DNA of 44,056 nt from an uncultured Planctomyces sp. (GTDB lineage Bacteria > Planctomycetota > Planctomycetia > Planctomycetales > Planctomycetaceae): positions 1 through 44,056 of the forward strand of contig CALGTK010000470.1 of the NCBI GenBank assembly GCA_937904325.1, in the 5' to 3' direction. The translations under genes were made by a program, and so were the position numbers. Numbering within the stretch: the stretch's first letter is position 1; every line of letters begins with the position of its first letter. Under the pieces are notes generated by a model. It was not told the origin of the DNA, did no database searches, and saw only the letters and a list, made by a program, of their open reading frames with translations. Positions 12,701-21,834 of the stretch are shown piece after piece.

Positions 12701-13720
12701 ATGAACGGCACGGAAGAACGATACAGCAGCTACAGCCTCGTCCGAGAGATGCTTGAAACCCCGCAGATCGTCGCAGGTTTCGATTCGCCAGGACTGGCCG
12801 ACCTTGGGAAGAAGATCGGCGCTGTCGACAGACTCCTGATGACGGGCGAAGGTTCGAGCCGATTGTTCCCGGCAAAGAGTGCCATCGCTCACGCATCACG
12901 AAAAGGCTGGCCTCTTTCACTGAGCACAGAAGCTGGCCGCCAGGCCACTGAGTACGACCTGTCGAAGTCAGCTGTGTTTGCCTTGTCAAATTCCGGCAAG
13001 ACAGCCGAAGTCATTCGACTCTTCAAATCGCTGAAAGAATCCGGACACGAAAATTGCTACAGTCTGAGTGCGACTCCTGACTCGCCGCTGGAAGAACTGG
13101 CCAATCAGGGTTTTGTTCTGAGCTGTGGCAAAGAGAACGCCGTCGCCGCAACGAAGAGCGTTGCCGAGCAAGCTCTTTTCTATCGAGCATTACTGGAACA
13201 CGCGGCCGGCGAACCTTCCGTCGCAACTCGTCAAGCCGACCTGGCCGGTATGATGGAAACGGCACTGACGACTCAGATTGATCCTGCACTTGTCAGCCGC
13301 ATCGCCAACGCAGGAACAATCTACTGGGCAGGCCGCAATGACGGAGTGACCGAAGAACTGACCCTCAAAACAAACGAGATCACTCGCAAGAAGTCCGACT
13401 TTCTCGAAGGCACCTACGCCGTACATGGCATCGAAGAAGTCATGGATGCTGAAGACGTCGTCCTGTGGGTCGAGCCATACGAAGAATCAGAAGAAAAGTT
13501 TCGAGAAGTTCTCTGCAAGGGCATCGGCCTGGAAATAATCGCAATATCGTCACGAAAGACTTCTTACCCGACGATCCAGATTCCGGACGCGGGCGACCTC
13601 GGCGAGTTCGTTCAAATCGCCGCAGGCTGGAACGTGCTTGTTGAAGTTGGCATCGCCCTGGGGATCGATCTCGACAAGCCCGAACGAGCTCGAAAGGTCG
13701 GCAATGAGTTCGTGGATTAA
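12701..13720 (+). CDS. SIS-domain sugar-phosphate isomerase/deaminase-like protein
   Basis: 339 residues with two SIS (sugar isomerase) domains and no glutaminase domain. This is like the isomerase half of GlmS and the AgaS/FrlB-type aldose-ketose isomerases. The sugar-phosphate binding loops are visible as LLMTGEGSSRLFPAKSAIAH and VFALSNSGKTAEVIRLFKSL; the SNSGKT loop is typical. A third block, CGKENAVAATKSVAEQALFY, matches the 'E…VaaTkS(y/f)' element that carries catalytic residues. It probably acts in the cytoplasm on an amino- or keto-sugar phosphate. I chose the ATG at 12701; translation from an earlier in-frame ATG gives an unlikely leader. Its 3' end overlaps the next gene by 17 nt. 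Confidence 0.85.
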   Translation: MNGTEERYSSYSLVREMLETPQIVAGFDSPGLADLGKKIGAVDRLLMTGEGSSRLFPAKSAIAHASRKGWPLSLSTEAGRQATEYDLSKSAVFALSNSGKTAEVIRLFKSLKESGHENCYSLSATPDSPLEELANQGFVLSCGKENAVAATKSVAEQALFYRALLEHAAGEPSVATRQADLAGMMETALTTQIDPALVSRIANAGTIYWAGRNDGVTEELTLKTNEITRKKSDFLEGTYAVHGIEEVMDAEDVVLWVEPYEESEEKFREVLCKGIGLEIIAISSRKTSYPTIQIPDAGDLGEFVQIAAGWNVLVEVGIALGIDLDKPERARKVGNEFVD

Positions 13721-16319
13721 GGAACGATCATGCTTCGAATCAACCAGGCTGGAACAAACTCTGCGCAGTTCCGGCCTACGGATCATATTGCTCCTGACGA
13801 TCGCTCCTTTAAACTCGCTGCTACCGGCGGCGGCCAACGCCGACAACACGGGTTCAGTCGAATGGTTTGAGAAAAAAATCCGCCCGGTTCTGGTCAAACA
13901 TTGCTATGAGTGCCACTCCGCTTCGTCGAAAGCGCTGGGCGGAAAGCTGAGACTCGACTTACGCGACGGACTGCTGACAGGAGGTGAAAGCGGACCAGCA
14001 GTCAGCGTTGGCAAGCCAGATTCAAGCTTGCTCATCCTGGCTCTGAAGTACGACGGTCTGGAAATGCCACCGTCGGCGAAACTTCCAGATAGTGTCATTG
14101 CTGATTTTGAAAAGTGGATTGAATTCGGGCTGCCCGATCCACGAAGTCGCCCCACCAGCGGAGAATCCCAGCCGGATGAAATGATAGCAAACGAAGACCT
14201 CTGGTCGTTGCAGCCCATCGTCACACCTCAAATTCCGGCGACGACTTCCGACTGGGCAGAATCTCCAATCGACCATTTCATCGCACAGAGACATGAGACA
14301 AACGGGCTGACTCCGGTCGCCGATGCTTCACCTCGCGACCTGCTGCGGCAAGTTTCGTTCGACCTGATCGGGCTGCCGCCAACGTACGGCGAGATCTCAA
14401 ATTTCGAGCATGAATTCTCGATTGAGCGTTACGCTGAAATCGTCGACGAAATGCTGGCGTCACCGCGGTTCGGGGAACGATGGGGGCGGCACTGGCTGGA
14501 TGTCGCCCGTTATGCGGAGTCCAACGGCAACGACCGAAATGTGATTTTCCCGCACGCCTGGCGTTATCGCAATTACGTCATCGGGGCGTTTAACTCTGAT
14601 AAACCTTTTGATCAGTTTGTCCGAGAGCAGATCGCTGGTGATCTGATTGCTTCAGACGACTGGCGAAGACGTGACGAGCAACTCGTCGCTACCGGCTTCC
14701 TGACGCTGGGTTCGAAAGTTCTGGGTGAGGGTGACAAGGACCTCTTCGAGATGAATCTGATTGACGAGCAGATTGATGTCATGTCGCGAGCGTTTCTCGG
14801 GCTCACCGTTAGTTGTGCAAGATGCCATGATCACAAATTCGATCCTGTACCAACTCGGGATTACTACGCTCTAGCCGGAATCTTTGGCAGTACGGAATCA
14901 CTTTACGGCCCGATGACCAACGCCAACAAGTACGGTTTTGATCGCCCGCTACAGCCGATCGGTAAAAACGGTGTTGCTCTTGACGGCCCGGCGAAAGCCT
15001 ATCGTGCAAAGGTCGCTGAAGCGACGGGAGTTCGGAACAAGGCTCGATCCAGTCGCTACGGATTCGTCCGAAAGAAAGCGGCTCTGGAAAACGAAATGAA
15101 GAAAACGACAGACGCCAAACGGCTTGCCGAAATCACTGACGAAATAAAAACGCAGGATACAGAAATCGCAGACTGGGATAAGAAGATCGAAGCACTCGAC
15201 GCCGCCCTTAAAGAATTGACTGACACCCCCCCGAAGTTTCCCGACTATTGTATGGCCGTGCGGGATCTGCCTGAACCGATTGACTGCGTCATCCGAATTC
15301 GAGGCGAGGTCAAACAGAAGGGCGATGTCGTGCCCCGCGGCGTCCCCTCGCTGTTTGACTTCCGAGAGGGCATCGGACCGCCGAAGAAAAGTAGCGGCCG
15401 ACTGCTTCTTGCAGATTGGCTCGTCGACGATGCCAATCCGCTGACCGCTCGCGTTGCCGTCAACAGAATCTGGCAGCACGTGTTTGGTCAAGGGCTGGTC
15501 GAGACTCCCAACAACTTCGGCCACATGGGAAAACGGCCGAGCCACCCTGCACTGCTGGATTGGCTGGCCAGCCGACTCAAAACCAACAACTGGTCAATCA
15601 AGGAAACAATTCGGGACATCGTTCTCAGTCGAACCTACCGCCTTTCATGTAGTCACTCAGCAAAGAACAACGAACTGGATCCGACCAACAATTTTCTCTG
15701 GCGTGCTCCAATTAAGCGTCTGGATGCTGAGTCACTTCGGGACGCAATGCTGCATGTGTCGGGTGAACTTGAGCTGACGCCTCCCGACGGTTCAGTCATC
15801 GCTTCGTTCAACGACAGAGAATTTAATGACCGCGTTCATCCGTCAGCCGAGCAACTAAGCTCGACGCATCGATCTGTCTATCTGCCGATTGCCAGATACT
15901 GGGTTCCCGACATGCTGCATGAATTCGATTTCGCCGACCCCAGCCTCGTCGTCGGAAAACGTACCGAGCGAACGATGGCTTCTCAGAGCCTGTTTCTGAT
16001 GAACAGTCAGATCATCACTGACCGCGCAATGCGAATTGCAAAAGACATCGCGGCTCAACCAGAAGAAGAACGAGCAACCGCTGCCTTTCGGAAAATTCTT
16101 CTCCGTGACCCGACCACCAGTGAAACCACTATGCTGACGGCCTTTGTTCAAGGATTGTCGGACAGCAGCGAAGTCGACGTTACGCACTCAACGGCCCCGA
16201 CCAGCAACGCCAAGTCCATCGAGCCAGAAAAAGACCTGAACACGGAAACGTTGGAAGCATCATGGCAAGCTGCCTGTCAGACACTGCTGATGACTGCGGA
16301 GTTTCGTTACGCGCCCTAG
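13704..16319 (+). CDS. PSCyt1–PSCyt2–PSD1 protein (DUF1549/DUF1553)
   Basis: 871 residues with a signal peptide around 24–46 (LRIILLLTIAPLNSLLPAAA). A PSCyt1 haem motif CYECH lies at 67–71, followed by the typical KLRLDLRDGLLTGGESGPAV and LLILALKYDGLEMPP. DUF1549 (PSCyt2) starts near PIDHFIAQRHETNGLTPVAD and includes FGERWGRHWLDVARYAES, with the second Cys pair in SCARCHDHKFDPVPTRDYYA. A coiled linker (about 430–500) precedes DUF1553 (PSD1): ADWLVDDANPLTARVAVNRI, NNFGHMGKRPSHPALLDWLA, and a late FLMNSQIITDRAMRIA. These planctomycete proteins are exported, probably haem-bearing, and of unknown reaction. The start ATG lies inside the SIS gene end, so the two are probably cotranscribed. It lacks the usual DUF1501 neighbour. 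Confidence 0.92.
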   Translation: MSSWIKERSCFESTRLEQTLRSSGLRIILLLTIAPLNSLLPAAANADNTGSVEWFEKKIRPVLVKHCYECHSASSKALGGKLRLDLRDGLLTGGESGPAVSVGKPDSSLLILALKYDGLEMPPSAKLPDSVIADFEKWIEFGLPDPRSRPTSGESQPDEMIANEDLWSLQPIVTPQIPATTSDWAESPIDHFIAQRHETNGLTPVADASPRDLLRQVSFDLIGLPPTYGEISNFEHEFSIERYAEIVDEMLASPRFGERWGRHWLDVARYAESNGNDRNVIFPHAWRYRNYVIGAFNSDKPFDQFVREQIAGDLIASDDWRRRDEQLVATGFLTLGSKVLGEGDKDLFEMNLIDEQIDVMSRAFLGLTVSCARCHDHKFDPVPTRDYYALAGIFGSTESLYGPMTNANKYGFDRPLQPIGKNGVALDGPAKAYRAKVAEATGVRNKARSSRYGFVRKKAALENEMKKTTDAKRLAEITDEIKTQDTEIADWDKKIEALDAALKELTDTPPKFPDYCMAVRDLPEPIDCVIRIRGEVKQKGDVVPRGVPSLFDFREGIGPPKKSSGRLLLADWLVDDANPLTARVAVNRIWQHVFGQGLVETPNNFGHMGKRPSHPALLDWLASRLKTNNWSIKETIRDIVLSRTYRLSCSHSAKNNELDPTNNFLWRAPIKRLDAESLRDAMLHVSGELELTPPDGSVIASFNDREFNDRVHPSAEQLSSTHRSVYLPIARYWVPDMLHEFDFADPSLVVGKRTERTMASQSLFLMNSQIITDRAMRIAKDIAAQPEEERATAAFRKILLRDPTTSETTMLTAFVQGLSDSSEVDVTHSTAPTSNAKSIEPEKDLNTETLEASWQAACQTLLMTAEFRYAP

Positions 16320-16542: not shown

Positions 16543-16572
16543 TTGACTCCGTTTTTTTAACACGCGTATAAT
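16543..16572 (+). promoter_or_regulatory. Sigma-70-type promoter for the three-gene membrane operon
   Basis: A −35 TTGACT (16543–16548) and a perfect −10 TATAAT (16567–16572) are separated by 18 bp, with a T-run in the spacer. Transcription would begin near 16579 and run through the three genes to the terminator at 18656. This is the best consensus promoter I noticed in the window. Confidence 0.65.
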
Positions 16573-16860
16573 CCGGAAACACTTATGCCGCACGTGTCAG
16601 AGAGACGATTCCTCGCCTGCGTTCGATAGTGGTTCACCATCCATCCCGCGGCGCAGGTCTAAGAAACGATATCCTCCGTACAACCGATCCAGCTGCCATG
16701 CCGTGGCCGAAATATCCAATTTTTTGTTGACGCACCTACCAGTGATCGTTCACTGTGACGATTCATTGGGCTGGTAAATGTACCCTTTGTGTTTTGATTG
16801 TTCTGGCATCGTCGCGACGCAGCGGCGTTGTCTATGCCCTCTTCAAACGAGAAGTCAGAA
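16573..16860 (+). other. Long untranslated leader of the membrane operon
   Basis: About 280 nt separate the predicted start of transcription from the first ATG. No convincing reading frame is present. The leader contains the inverted repeat AGTGA-TCGT-TCACT at 16741–16754. An in-frame ATG at 16834 could start translation earlier. I cannot assign a riboswitch class. Confidence 0.4.
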
Positions 16861-17550
16861 ATGACGACCAAAATCAGCAAGATCATGGTTGTCTTCGTGA
16901 CCACGGCAAGCATTGCCTTCCTTGGAATTGCCGTCGGGATCAGCAAGCTCGGTCCCAACTGGCGCGAGGAAACTCAAAACCTGCCGGACTATGCCTTCGC
17001 CGAAACGACGGGTGAAAAACCTCAATGGACGACAACTCAACGAACCGAGAGTGCGCCTCTGGCAACTGGATCACTTCCAAGTGTAATCATGAAGTCCTAC
17101 GACGACGCGTCGCGTCGAAATCAGGATAAGGTAGCGGCCACCACGCCGCAGATCGAAAATATTAAAACGCAGATCGGAAGATTGTCCAAGTTTGTCGACG
17201 AGGACGTGCAAGGAATTTCTAAACGCGAAGAGCAACTTGTGCAGGCTCTCGCCGATGTCGGAACTCAGATTCAAACACTATCGACTGAGAGCGAACTGCT
17301 CGCTAGTCAGGCGGTTGACATTCGGGCTGTCGGCGAGCGAACTCGTGAATCTGGAATGCGTTTGAAGCGGCAGCGGATTCAGATCGAAACAGAGCTCTAC
17401 CGAGCCACTCAACAACAACGGTATCTCCTCGATCAGGTCTACCAAATGGAAGGAATCCTGCATCGATTGCAGGATCGTGAGCAACAACTGATCAAACAGG
17501 GTGCCGTACCAAATCAAGCCGCTCCTGCGGTCGATTCAACCAGCACTTGA
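16861..17550 (+). CDS. Membrane-anchored coiled-coil protein, first gene of a three-gene operon
   Basis: 229 residues of unknown family. One N-terminal transmembrane segment (IMVVFVTTASIAFLGIAVGI, about 8–28) is followed by a short extracytoplasmic linker and then a long heptad-rich coiled coil from about residue 80 to 210 (IENIKTQIGRLSKFVDEDVQ through IQIETELYRATQQQRYLLDQ). The C-terminus is a short Pro/Ala/Ser tail. It is the first gene after the promoter at 16543, and the next gene starts 82 nt downstream. The protein is probably a structural or scaffold element at the membrane, working with the other coiled-coil protein encoded beside it. In-frame ATGs at 16798 and 16834 are alternatives, but the MTTKISK start best fits the membrane segment. 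Confidence 0.75.
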   Translation: MTTKISKIMVVFVTTASIAFLGIAVGISKLGPNWREETQNLPDYAFAETTGEKPQWTTTQRTESAPLATGSLPSVIMKSYDDASRRNQDKVAATTPQIENIKTQIGRLSKFVDEDVQGISKREEQLVQALADVGTQIQTLSTESELLASQAVDIRAVGERTRESGMRLKRQRIQIETELYRATQQQRYLLDQVYQMEGILHRLQDREQQLIKQGAVPNQAAPAVDSTST

Positions 17551-17632
17551 TTCTTGCAGCGTAAATCCGTTTCAGGACGGAATAAGCAGCTTTTACATTT
17601 TCGCCCAACTTACGGAAGTCAGGATTCAGGCC

Positions 17633-18493
17633 ATGACGTTTATTGGAAAACTTCTGGTCATCATCCAACTGGTTCTCAGCATCTGCTTCATGATGCTGGC
17701 AGGTGCCGTTTTTACCCGGCACATGACGTGGATGGAACGAGCGAACGACAATCAGTTGACGATAGACAACGGTATCGCTGACTACGCTCGAATGGAGACG
17801 GAGAAGAACGACGAGATCAAAGCGTTGAAGTCCAATCTCGCTCAGACTCAAACCGCCGCGGATAATGCCAGCGCTGAGTTACGACTGGCTCAGAATGAAA
17901 TCGAAAGCCAGAAACTTCAGATCGACACTCAAAAGACAGAGTTAAACACCCAGCAGGCTCTAGCCACGATTTCTGGCGACGAGGCTAAGATTCGACGCGA
18001 AGAAGCATTAAGTGGACGACGCATCAACGAACAATTGAACTCTGCCTTGAACGAACAGAACCAGCGAGTGCGTCAACTCGAAGATGAACTGTTCAATCAG
18101 CAGGTCGGATCGAAGTCTCTGACAGAAAAATACAATGGGATACTGAAAACAGTCGCCACACTCCGCAAAGTTCTGGTTGCGAATCAGCTTGATCCAGATC
18201 CAAGCAAATACACGCGCAAACTAGCCCCACCGCCTCTCGTTATTGGCAAAGTTCTTGAAGCAAAGAAGTCCGGTCGGGGCATCAGCCAACAGTTTATTGA
18301 AATTTCGATTGGTAGCGACGACGGGCTGACCGAAGGAAACACTCTTTATGTGTTCCGGGCTGGTGTACAGAACAAGTATCTCGGCGAGATTCGACTGAAA
18401 CTCGTGACTGCAGACCGTGCCGTGGGCGTGGTCGTGGACCGGGCAAAGAACGGCGTCATTGAGAGGGAAGACTATGTCACAACAAAACTCTGA
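17633..18493 (+). CDS. Membrane-anchored coiled-coil protein with C-terminal β-barrel-like domain
   Basis: 286 residues. One N-terminal transmembrane segment (FIGKLLVIIQLVLSICFMML, about 3–24) is followed by a coiled coil (about 45–190). A compact β-rich C-terminal domain begins at VIGKVLEAKKSGRGISQQF, with ISIGSDDGLTEGNTLYVFRA, then KYLGEIRLKLVTADRAVGVV and a basic end. The 'GSDDGLxEGxxLxVxR…YLGxIxL' pattern recalls the MreC-like β domain and is common in planctomycete membrane proteins; this is family-level recall. I chose the ATG at 17633 because the membrane segment starts there. The last 20 nt overlap the next gene. It may form a complex with the upstream coiled-coil protein. Confidence 0.8.
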   Translation: MTFIGKLLVIIQLVLSICFMMLAGAVFTRHMTWMERANDNQLTIDNGIADYARMETEKNDEIKALKSNLAQTQTAADNASAELRLAQNEIESQKLQIDTQKTELNTQQALATISGDEAKIRREEALSGRRINEQLNSALNEQNQRVRQLEDELFNQQVGSKSLTEKYNGILKTVATLRKVLVANQLDPDPSKYTRKLAPPPLVIGKVLEAKKSGRGISQQFIEISIGSDDGLTEGNTLYVFRAGVQNKYLGEIRLKLVTADRAVGVVVDRAKNGVIEREDYVTTKL

Positions 18494-18617
18494 TCAAAAA
18501 CCGGCACCAGATGTCTGGGTCGGACTGTTGTTCGTCTCGGTCGCGGCACTCTCGCTGGGAATCATGTTTCTGGTGTTTGAGCTGAATAAGTACGAATGGG
18601 CTCTACCAAACGGATAA
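18474..18617 (+). CDS. Small single-span membrane protein
   Basis: 47 residues: a polar N-terminus (MSQQNSDQKPAPDVW), one transmembrane helix (VGLLFVSVAALSLGIMFLVF) and a short end with ELNKYEWALPNG. The start ATG lies inside the upstream gene (20-nt overlap) and is preceded by GAGAGGGAAG, a good ribosome-binding site, so this is a real small gene translated as part of the operon. It is the third and last gene before the terminator at 18656. It is likely a small subunit of a membrane complex with the two coiled-coil proteins; no family is known to me. Confidence 0.8.
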   Translation: MSQQNSDQKPAPDVWVGLLFVSVAALSLGIMFLVFELNKYEWALPNG

Positions 18618-18655
18618 TTGAAAACTGACGCAAACTACAAATGGTCAATGCACAT

Positions 18656-18692
18656 CAGGCCGCGCCGGCTTAGTCCGTCGCGGCCTGTTTTC
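18656..18692 (+). terminator. Intrinsic terminator of the three-gene membrane operon
   Basis: CAGGCCGCG (18656–18664) and CGCGGCCTG (18679–18687) form a perfect 9-bp GC-rich stem with a 14-nt loop, followed directly by TTTTCG. It lies 39 nt after the stop of the small membrane gene and just outside the oppositely oriented dehydrogenase gene. Confidence 0.85.
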
Positions 18693-18723: not shown

Positions 18724-21700
18724 CTACTGCAGAGAAGCCAGCCATGCCAGCAGATCGGCAGTGTCCTGGGGCGTCAGACCACGTAGCTGCAACTCGGGCA
18801 TCAGTGATTTTTTCTGAGCAACCATAAGCTCGACACCAGCGACAGAAACAGTAACCAGCTTGCCGGTCGCTTCTCGAATCGTAACGTTTTCATCCGTTCT
18901 GCTCTCGAGCAATCCGGACAACACCTTCCCGTCATCGGTCTGGATCAGCCAGGTCTGGAATTTTGAATCAATCTTCTTCGAAGGCTCCAGAATGTTCTCC
19001 AGGATCTCTGCTCGGCTGTATCGTTTCCCAATGCCATCAAGAGTCGGTCCAACAGCTTTTCCATCCTGCCCAACCTTGTGACAATTGCGACATTGTAAGC
19101 CAGGGGCGGTCAAAAATAGTTTTCGCCCACTTTCTGCATCTCCACTCAGAGCCAGTAAATCACTTTCGTTAATTGCTGACCCCAGCGTCTTCGTACGAGC
19201 GTCTTCTGGAACAAAAGCCTCAAACAAATCTCTAACAATCGCGTCATCGAGAGCCGTGCCCTTAGTGATGACGGCACTTCGAACGTCTGAAGTAAGCCCT
19301 TTGGCCGCGTCCCCACGCAGCGAACTCGCGAGAAGCAATGCGCCGCTGGTCGAAGAAAGAAGTCGGTGGATCGCGGCTTGCGTTGTTGAAGAGCTGGAGT
19401 TTTCGGATGACTTGAGTTTTTTCAAAGTCGCTCGGTTCGTGGTCGCAAGGTGGTGAGCCGCCGAAGCCACGTTCTCGTTCTCATTTTCCAGTTCAGAAGA
19501 CGGCTCAAGCTGCGAGATCCACTCGCGCAAAAGTGAAACTCCCTCGTCATCGATGACGCGGGATCCGAAGTGCGGCATCCGGCCACGGCCAACTTTGGAC
19601 ATCCGGTAAAATAAGATCGAACGGTCAGGGTCTCCCGGTGCCACCACCCACGGATCAACGATACCGAACGATCCCTGTGTCGGCCGCGAGACTAAATGTG
19701 TTTTGTTGAAATTGATATCGTGAAGGACTTCGATGGCCGCCGTGCCGCCGCCACCGCGCTGGTGACAATGCGAACAGTTCACGTGGAGATAAGACCGGAC
19801 CCGCTGAGTCAAATCGGCTGACTCGTCTTCAGGTGGGGTCATTTTTTTTAATTCCGCCAGGGAAACTCGATCTGGTGACGGAGACTTTCCAATCGGTTTC
19901 TCGAATACTCCCAGATGAGCAAGCGTTCGCAACTGGTTGTCTTTAACTTGCCCATAGTCAAAGTCTCGATTGATCTGCTCAATCTGAAATCCGTAGACCG
20001 AACCGCCGCGACTCGAATGGCAAAGCAGACACTCGGTCTGGCTGGAAAAATGCCAGGTTTGTGATCGACGACCGGAATCTACCTCTTCATCAGGCACAAA
20101 GTATTCGCGGTCAAAGGCTTTTCCGTCGGAAAGTACGGCGTCCGTTTGCTCATCATTCCAGATGTAGGTGTAGGCTCGCCATTCGTCTTTGTGTCGGTAA
20201 AGAATCTGTGTTTCCAGACGTTGTTGCCTCGACGTCTTATTCGAACCAGTTTTCAGCAGAATAGTTTTCCCAAGGACTGTTCCGTCCGGGTAACTCCATT
20301 CACCCTTCAAATTTCCTTTCTGAGTGTTATTGATCTGGTGGACGCCAATCGTGGACATGTTGGGCAAGGCAATAAATCGCTCGGCCGTTGTACCGTCTGC
20401 CCAGGGAGCAGCATTCACATCGTACGGCAACACTCCTGACGCCAGAGCCATGTTTTCAACAGACGAAAACAGTCCGGTCTCGCTCAGATCTCGTGGAAAT
20501 TCGGAAACAGTTCCAACGTCTGGATTGTTGATCAAACGATGAATCGTTCCGCCATAGCTGACGACAAAAAGTTCACGATCGTGATCCTGTCCGAAACAAA
20601 TAATCTGTATCGGAGTCCCCAGCAGTTCAACTGGTTTTCCAGGATCCGATGCATCGCCATCGAGCCCCCAAATCCGGCCGGTCACGTAATCGCCGTAGAC
20701 GTAAGTGCCGACGAGATTCGGCAGACGCCCCCCTCGATAGACGTAACCTCCGGTAATGGACTTTGATTCCGTGTGCGCGTGAGCCGCCGTCGGCGGCACA
20801 ATTGGAGTTGGGCCGCGGGGAAAATCCGGATTTACAGATTGGACGTGCTCAAGAATGCTCCATCCATAGTTGGCTCCGCGTTGAACTCGATAAATCATCT
20901 CCCACATTTCCCAGCCGACGTCGCCAACCCACAAATGTCCTGTCAGTTGGTCGAAAGCCATCCGCCAGGGATTACGATGACCGTAAGTCCAGACTTCGCC
21001 TCGAGCGTCATCGACTCCGACGAACGGGTTATCATCGGGAATCGAATAAGCACGATCAGCTGATGGATGATCGACGTCGATTCGCAGGATAGACGCCAAC
21101 AGATCGCTGATGTTCTGCCCTGTGCCTTGCGGGTCAGGAGGAAACGGAGGGGCCGCATCTCCCGTCGAGACATAAAGCAGCCCATCTTTAGGACCAAACT
21201 GCAACGATCCACCGTTATGACCACCTGACTGCCAGGTAATAATCTGCCGCTCAGACGAAGCATCAATCTTCAACGGATCGACGGACGTCACAGTGAAGCG
21301 GGAAACGCTTGTTCCAGCTGGGTCTCCGGGCTTTTTGATGTATGAGATAAAGCAATATCGGTTTTTTTCGAAGTCCGGGTGAAAAACGAAGCCGTAGGAT
21401 TTCGTCGCTCCTTCGATCGATTTTCGAAGATCAAGAGCAACATCCGCTTCCGCAGGATTACCAGATTGCGAGAAGGAAAGAATTCTGCCATCGACTTCGA
21501 CGACAAGCATCCGGTCTGTACCCGGCACCGGAAGCAACTCGACAGGATTCTTGAACGTGAGCAGGGGGAAGACGTGTTCCAGCACGTACGGCGAAGGCGG
21601 CTCCGGCGTGCCGACCATCCGCGAGGTCGACCATGCAACGCGTTTATCAATTCCGAACGGCTCGTCGTCAGCCTGCGCGTGTAGCGGACCACCGCAGAGC

Positions 21701-21834
21701 AAACACAAAATCAGAAATGACGGCGTTTGCCGACTCACACACGTCGCGGTGGACAGTAATCTGTTCAATGTACTCTCTCCGTTGAATGTGTTGTCAGACA
21801 TCTTCGCCAGCAAACGCAAAGAAAACTGAAGCAT
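18724..21834 (-). CDS. Sugar dehydrogenase (GSDH) β-propeller fused to SO_0930-like and c-type cytochrome modules
   Basis: 1036 residues in four parts. An N-terminal signal region (SFLILCLLCGGPLHAQ) precedes a GSDH/PQQ-type propeller (about 80–430) with NPVELLPVPGTDRMLVVEVD, SGGHNGGSLQFGPKDGLLYV, GHRNPWRMAFDQLTGHLWVG and GGYVYRGGRLPNLVGTYVYG. A middle region (about 450–720) looks like the SO_0930-type repeat and carries CLLCH and CSHCH. The end is a Pirellula-type haem-binding domain with CRNCH at 915–919 and a GPTLDGIGKRYSRAEILENI block. It would oxidise a sugar in the periplasm and pass electrons along fused haems. Start and upstream stop share one base (TGATG), so it is coupled to the nucleotidase gene. 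Confidence 0.87.
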   Translation of the reverse strand: MLQFSLRLLAKMSDNTFNGESTLNRLLSTATCVSRQTPSFLILCLLCGGPLHAQADDEPFGIDKRVAWSTSRMVGTPEPPSPYVLEHVFPLLTFKNPVELLPVPGTDRMLVVEVDGRILSFSQSGNPAEADVALDLRKSIEGATKSYGFVFHPDFEKNRYCFISYIKKPGDPAGTSVSRFTVTSVDPLKIDASSERQIITWQSGGHNGGSLQFGPKDGLLYVSTGDAAPPFPPDPQGTGQNISDLLASILRIDVDHPSADRAYSIPDDNPFVGVDDARGEVWTYGHRNPWRMAFDQLTGHLWVGDVGWEMWEMIYRVQRGANYGWSILEHVQSVNPDFPRGPTPIVPPTAAHAHTESKSITGGYVYRGGRLPNLVGTYVYGDYVTGRIWGLDGDASDPGKPVELLGTPIQIICFGQDHDRELFVVSYGGTIHRLINNPDVGTVSEFPRDLSETGLFSSVENMALASGVLPYDVNAAPWADGTTAERFIALPNMSTIGVHQINNTQKGNLKGEWSYPDGTVLGKTILLKTGSNKTSRQQRLETQILYRHKDEWRAYTYIWNDEQTDAVLSDGKAFDREYFVPDEEVDSGRRSQTWHFSSQTECLLCHSSRGGSVYGFQIEQINRDFDYGQVKDNQLRTLAHLGVFEKPIGKSPSPDRVSLAELKKMTPPEDESADLTQRVRSYLHVNCSHCHQRGGGGTAAIEVLHDINFNKTHLVSRPTQGSFGIVDPWVVAPGDPDRSILFYRMSKVGRGRMPHFGSRVIDDEGVSLLREWISQLEPSSELENENENVASAAHHLATTNRATLKKLKSSENSSSSTTQAAIHRLLSSTSGALLLASSLRGDAAKGLTSDVRSAVITKGTALDDAIVRDLFEAFVPEDARTKTLGSAINESDLLALSGDAESGRKLFLTAPGLQCRNCHKVGQDGKAVGPTLDGIGKRYSRAEILENILEPSKKIDSKFQTWLIQTDDGKVLSGLLESRTDENVTIREATGKLVTVSVAGVELMVAQKKSLMPELQLRGLTPQDTADLLAWLASLQ

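Follow-up and report, generated by a model that had tools for sequence, protein, structure and literature searches.

The 44,056-nucleotide window analysed here, a stretch of DNA from an uncultured Planctomyces sp., contains three consecutive genes, g1, g2 and g3, for which a first, sequence-only reading could name no function. That reading proposed that the three form a self-contained unit and that their products make up a dedicated, possibly structural membrane complex. The locus thus raises the question of which cellular process such a complex would serve. We addressed it through the integrity of the unit, the architecture of the proteins, their distribution among planctomycetes and the genes that accompany them.

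Layout of the unit and architecture of its proteins

Promoter, leader, g1, g2, the overlapping g3 and the terminator were all found where they had been placed initially (Table 1). The promoter scan used a threshold of 9/12 consensus positions, a level at which 1.8 sites per 4 kb are expected by chance, so that the consensus match alone is weak proof of a promoter. The −35 box TTGACT and the −10 box TA(T/C)AAT were kept in all three available congeners, with a spacer of 18 or 19 nucleotides, and they lie within a block that is more conserved in these three genomes than the remaining leader, which has drifted. The leader folded not clearly better than its shuffled versions (z −0.43 and −1.79), and an Rfam search matched no family to it. 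Its second half (16715-16860) contains blocks conserved within the genus, e.g. GTTGACG...CCCAG, and gave the modest folding signal of z −1.79.

Table 1. Positions of the features of the three-gene unit within the window
Feature	Position	Strand	Remarks
Sigma-70-type promoter, TTGACT-N18-TATAAT	16543-16572	+	Consensus match 11/12; boxes kept in three congeners
Leader, untranslated, ~280 nt	16580-16860	+	Partly conserved within the genus
g1, 229 aa	16861-17550	+	N-terminal membrane anchor and coiled coil; without beta domain
g2, 286 aa	17633-18493	+	Membrane anchor ~8-26, coiled coil ~35-185, C-terminal beta domain ~199-286
g2 beta domain, FlgT_C/MreC-barrel-like	18227-18490	+	Sub-threshold Pfam, hhalign, low-confidence all-beta model
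g3, 47 aa, single-span	18474-18617	+	Start overlaps g2 end by 20 nt
Intrinsic terminator, hairpin and T-run	18656-18691 (hairpin 18656-18687)	+	Fold z −4.2; stem in two congeners

The terminator had been described as a perfect hairpin. It is indeed strong, with a folding energy of −24.1 kcal/mol that none of 200 shuffled sequences equalled, but it is not perfect, because the stem of 9 bp is followed by one mismatch and then by three more pairs. The stem is nearly unchanged in one congener and carries paired substitutions in a second, and the third aligns poorly in this region. The start of g3 lies in a different frame within the last codons of g2, and the same DNA therefore encodes the g2 C-terminus NVTTKL and the g3 N-terminus MSPRSS; this overlap recurs in many relatives. 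Comparison with the three congeners gave dN/dS values of 0.08-0.15 for g1, 0.07-0.14 for g2 and 0.02-0.15 for g3, which indicates purifying selection. Thus, all three are real genes. The genes on either side (13638-16319 and 18724-21834), which presumably encode planctomycete cytochrome c/DUF1553-type and PQQ/sorbosone-dehydrogenase-type proteins, have no evident connection to the trio.

In both g1 and g2, an N-terminal membrane helix leads into a coiled coil whose period is 3.5 residues. After the coil, g2 carries a domain of ~90 residues, and g1 ends without one. The description of the products as two membrane-anchored coiled-coil proteins and one 47-residue single-span protein was thereby borne out. 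A profile of the g2 N-terminus matched 33 of the 38 g1 proteins at E ≤0.01, as compared with 9 of 760 shuffled sequences, and hhalign returned 87% for the window's g1. By these profile comparisons, the first 40 residues of g1, with its membrane anchor, are related to those of g2. The charge distribution favours an N-in topology, clearly for g1 (35/38) and mildly for g2 (44/74); in g3, the N-side is richer in K/R in 30 of 42 proteins.

AlphaFold predicted only helix for full-length g2 (mean pLDDT 58.6) and a low-confidence all-beta fold for its beta domain alone (mean pLDDT 43.6). The models are too weak because only four sequences were used as input, and the agreement between two low-confidence g2 models is limited to beta content. 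Searches of PDB sequences with the full-length and beta-domain profiles of g2 yielded coiled-coil noise or insignificant matches only. None of the three proteins reached the cut-off of a Pfam or NCBIfam family and none has an assigned role. Regions resembling the g2 beta domain were also found inside large open frames of 716-1993 aa (G003:C5:279325-279624, G036:C76:22172-22447 and G019:C3:1853-2113); the domain thus also occurs in other planctomycete proteins.

Distribution and genomic neighbourhood

The g2 gene is present in 53 of 59 relatives, and its profile matched 323 of 392 genomes sampled across the phylum, nearly over its full length among the matches listed. Within the class, virtually all true orthologue loci examined have a g3 profile match immediately behind g2; as the profile was trained on loci of the same class, the finding here is the constant position and not the score. 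Of 40 loci from the phylum, nearly all likewise have a single-span open reading frame of g3-like size behind g2. Its sequence similarity to g3 is often weak, and homology beyond the class therefore rests partly on position and topology. The side-by-side search in other planctomycetes revealed the genes to be conserved together. The notion of a three-gene set holds in this respect, but its phylum-wide part comprises only g2-g3, and g1 is a lineage addition.

Some loci vary this arrangement. Two of them (L099 and L103) carry a tandem duplication of g2 with a small single-span gene behind the second copy. In three loci of one other family (L073, L078 and L079), two anchor-plus-coil genes lie ahead of g2; g1-like subunits are thus not constant in number. 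No relatives were found in a search of viral contigs, and a scan of genome contigs returned three close relatives only.

Across many families, lnt and mre genes recur beside g2. Among the 54 genomes that list both genes, with the best MreB hit taken for mreB, mreB starts 157-940 bp past g2 on the same strand in 48, and in five of the six exceptions the two genes lie on different contigs. Of 37 loci outside the class, 29 have mreB no more than 1.4 kb downstream of g2, mostly with mreC and mrdA behind it; some genomes are common to this count and the 48/54. The lnt gene is located directly upstream of g2 in 23 of these 37 loci, 19 of which have both lnt and mreB. By our rough estimate, chance would place g2 beside mreB in ~1 in 10,000 cases per genome. 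Pfam searches with sampled genes identified MreB (1.5e-131), MreC (2.4e-11 and 3.1e-25), MreD (1.8e-7), the transpeptidase (1.7e-57) and LNT_N (1e-32).

In the window's family, g1-g2-g3 directly precede mreB in 7 of 34 loci, and lnt adjoins the trio in none. Six of the seven have the order g1-g2-g3-mreB-mreC-mrdA, and the contig of the seventh stops after mreB; the one trio-mreB locus tested with Pfam gave a confirmed MreD. The order lnt-g2-g3-mreB occurs in two other loci of the class. In other families of the class, lnt lies upstream of g2 in 9 of 19 loci, including lineages without detected MreC.

Most of the window's family, the window's genome included, has the trio away from the mre genes. 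On a different contig, this genome has an intact mreB-mreC-mreD-mrdA operon that no trio precedes; its mreD was assigned by position and length, and its product has no Pfam match. In this genome, g2 and g3 adjoin each other but do not stand directly before mreB. In the window's genus, the trio stands apart from the mre operon amid unrelated genes, with its own promoter and terminator. Its description as self-contained is thus accurate for the genus but not for most of the phylum, where g2-g3 lead mreB-mreC-mrdA, often after lnt.

Relationship of g2 to MreC

MreC, a coiled-coil dimer carrying two barrels, serves as a platform for PBP2 (PMC8804602, PMC5626683). The g2 protein shares with it the succession of a single N-terminal membrane helix, a coiled coil and a C-terminal beta domain, the beta content being taken from the low-confidence models, and in much of the phylum the two are encoded in the same operon. 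A remote profile similarity was also detected: hhalign aligned the g2 beta domain with planctomycete MreC over 44 columns with a score of 35.9 and 78% probability, whereas 60 column shuffles scored ≤13.2 and the reversed profile 17.2. This result suggests common descent of the g2 beta domain and MreC. The MreC-like beta domain noted at the outset was thus recovered as a resemblance, but the family threshold was not reached. Pfam MreC matched 2 of 20 g2 beta domains, with a best E of 0.025, and the window's g2 did not attain the cut-off of PF04085. Moreover, MreC contains two six-stranded barrels (~147 profile positions; PMC8804602), whereas g2 has one domain of the length given above, only part of which is covered by the alignment.

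The possibility that g2 is the mreC gene itself was rejected, because a true MreC is encoded after mreB in the same genome (G000:C327) and g2 falls short of an MreC family match. The two genes also differ in position, g2 being located before mreB. We thus regard g2 as a protein that would work like MreC without belonging to the MreC family, as judged from the family tests above.

The two are not retained together throughout. MreC was not detected by Pfam in 22 relatives' genomes from other families of the class, most of which retain g2-g3. MreB hits in the genomes of these families are mostly weak, and g2-g3 are often accompanied by lnt. We conclude that neither MreB nor MreC is a strict requirement of the module. 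Conversely, g2 is missing from 34 of the 35 top-scoring genomes for MreC, as read by eye from the listings; they come from few families, perhaps one lineage, and therefore count as few events. The families f49, f80, f98 and f102 have the most canonical MreC and almost always miss g2, and the g2-bearing genomes have a more divergent MreC. In almost the whole of the window's family, MreC was detected at cut-off, and a MreD match was also seen beside it. These matches amend the published picture, in which budding planctomycetes are without MreC, apart from one probable false positive, and MreD occurs in no PVC proteome (PMC5147048).

A putative scaffold for cell-wall growth

Since the core pair g2-g3 adjoins mreB/mreC in most of the phylum, the trio probably belongs to the wall-building and wall-shaping machinery and has so far been overlooked. 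We propose, with a probability of roughly 0.6, that it constitutes an accessory module of the planctomycete Rod/Mre system, a periplasmic scaffold of the MreC type. The single-pass g2 would form dimers or filaments through its coiled coil and hold one small beta barrel in the periplasm, where MreC holds two. The tiny single-pass partner g3, whose translation would be coupled to that of g2, would probably pack against the membrane helix of g2 or against MreD, RodA or PBP2. In the window's lineage, g1 would join as a second, barrel-less coiled-coil subunit with a g2-type anchor. The resulting complex may help to position the PBP2-RodA wall synthase or to switch it on, alongside MreC and RodZ or partly in their stead. 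A dedicated, structural membrane complex, as originally envisaged, thus remains the best reading, with predicted contacts among its members and with Mre or PBP2 proteins. Planctopirus limnophila can do without mreB and pbp2 (PMC6952346, PMC10632474), so that the pathway may be of little importance in that organism.

The frequent position of lnt directly upstream of g2, outside the class as well as in class families without detected MreC, would also fit a module that acts with Lnt in the biogenesis of lipoproteins or the outer membrane. The proximity of mreB would then reflect a broad envelope cluster, and g2 could act in the periplasm as a tether or as a chaperone-like scaffold. It agrees with this idea that lnt is essential in P. 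limnophila and mreB is not (PMC10632474, PMC6952346). We nevertheless regard it as unlikely: outside the class, the linkage to mreB is commoner than that to lnt, in the window's family the trio was met with mreB and never with lnt, and the architecture is that of MreC.

RodZ is a membrane-anchored protein with a periplasmic beta domain that is linked to MreB function. As g2 has a membrane anchor, a presumably periplasmic beta domain and a connection to mreB, g2 and g3 might functionally replace RodZ and link MreB to the periplasmic wall synthase; MreB would then be contacted in the cytoplasm by the basic tail of g3. The K/R-rich N-side of g3 would suit this role, and RodZ_C (PF13464) was found in 0 of the 59 relatives' genomes, in line with the reported lack of RodZ in planctomycetes (PMC5147048). 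However, only ~six residues precede the membrane helix of g2, which is missing the cytoplasmic HTH domain of RodZ, and g2-g3 persist in genomes without convincing MreB, which makes the replacement improbable. We see an even slimmer chance that the trio acts elsewhere, e.g. as a secretion or motility scaffold, and that its operon linkage is historical. This idea builds on FlgT_C (PF16538), likewise a small beta domain and the best sub-threshold Pfam resemblance of the g2 beta domain, with matches in 15 of the 20 members (best 2.9e-5). Yet the window's protein stays outside that family with 14.4 bits against a cut-off of 27. Furthermore, FlgT is a flagellar assembly protein according to its Pfam description, whereas g2 consists of a membrane anchor and a coiled coil in addition to its beta domain, and its recurrent neighbours across many families are, among the genes surveyed, lnt and the mre genes.

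To our knowledge, planctomycetes do without FtsZ, the usual division protein. An extension of the wall-growth scaffold that we consider speculative and rather unlikely is that in these FtsZ-less bacteria much of what MreC and RodZ do has passed to g2-g3, with g1 where present, as a planctomycete-type morphogenesis scaffold. Such a scaffold would have outlasted the loss of MreB/MreC in some lineages and may organise envelope growth or budding in their absence. Planctomycete morphogenesis genes were the subject of a comparative study by Jogler et al. (2012), as cited in PMC10945688. In the open-access literature on planctomycete division and MreC, we found no earlier description of g1-g3, although priority is not certain. 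A two-gene core that occurs in most of the phylum, lies within the mre operon and is kept where MreB/MreC seem to be lost is a concrete candidate for a component of growth and division without FtsZ.
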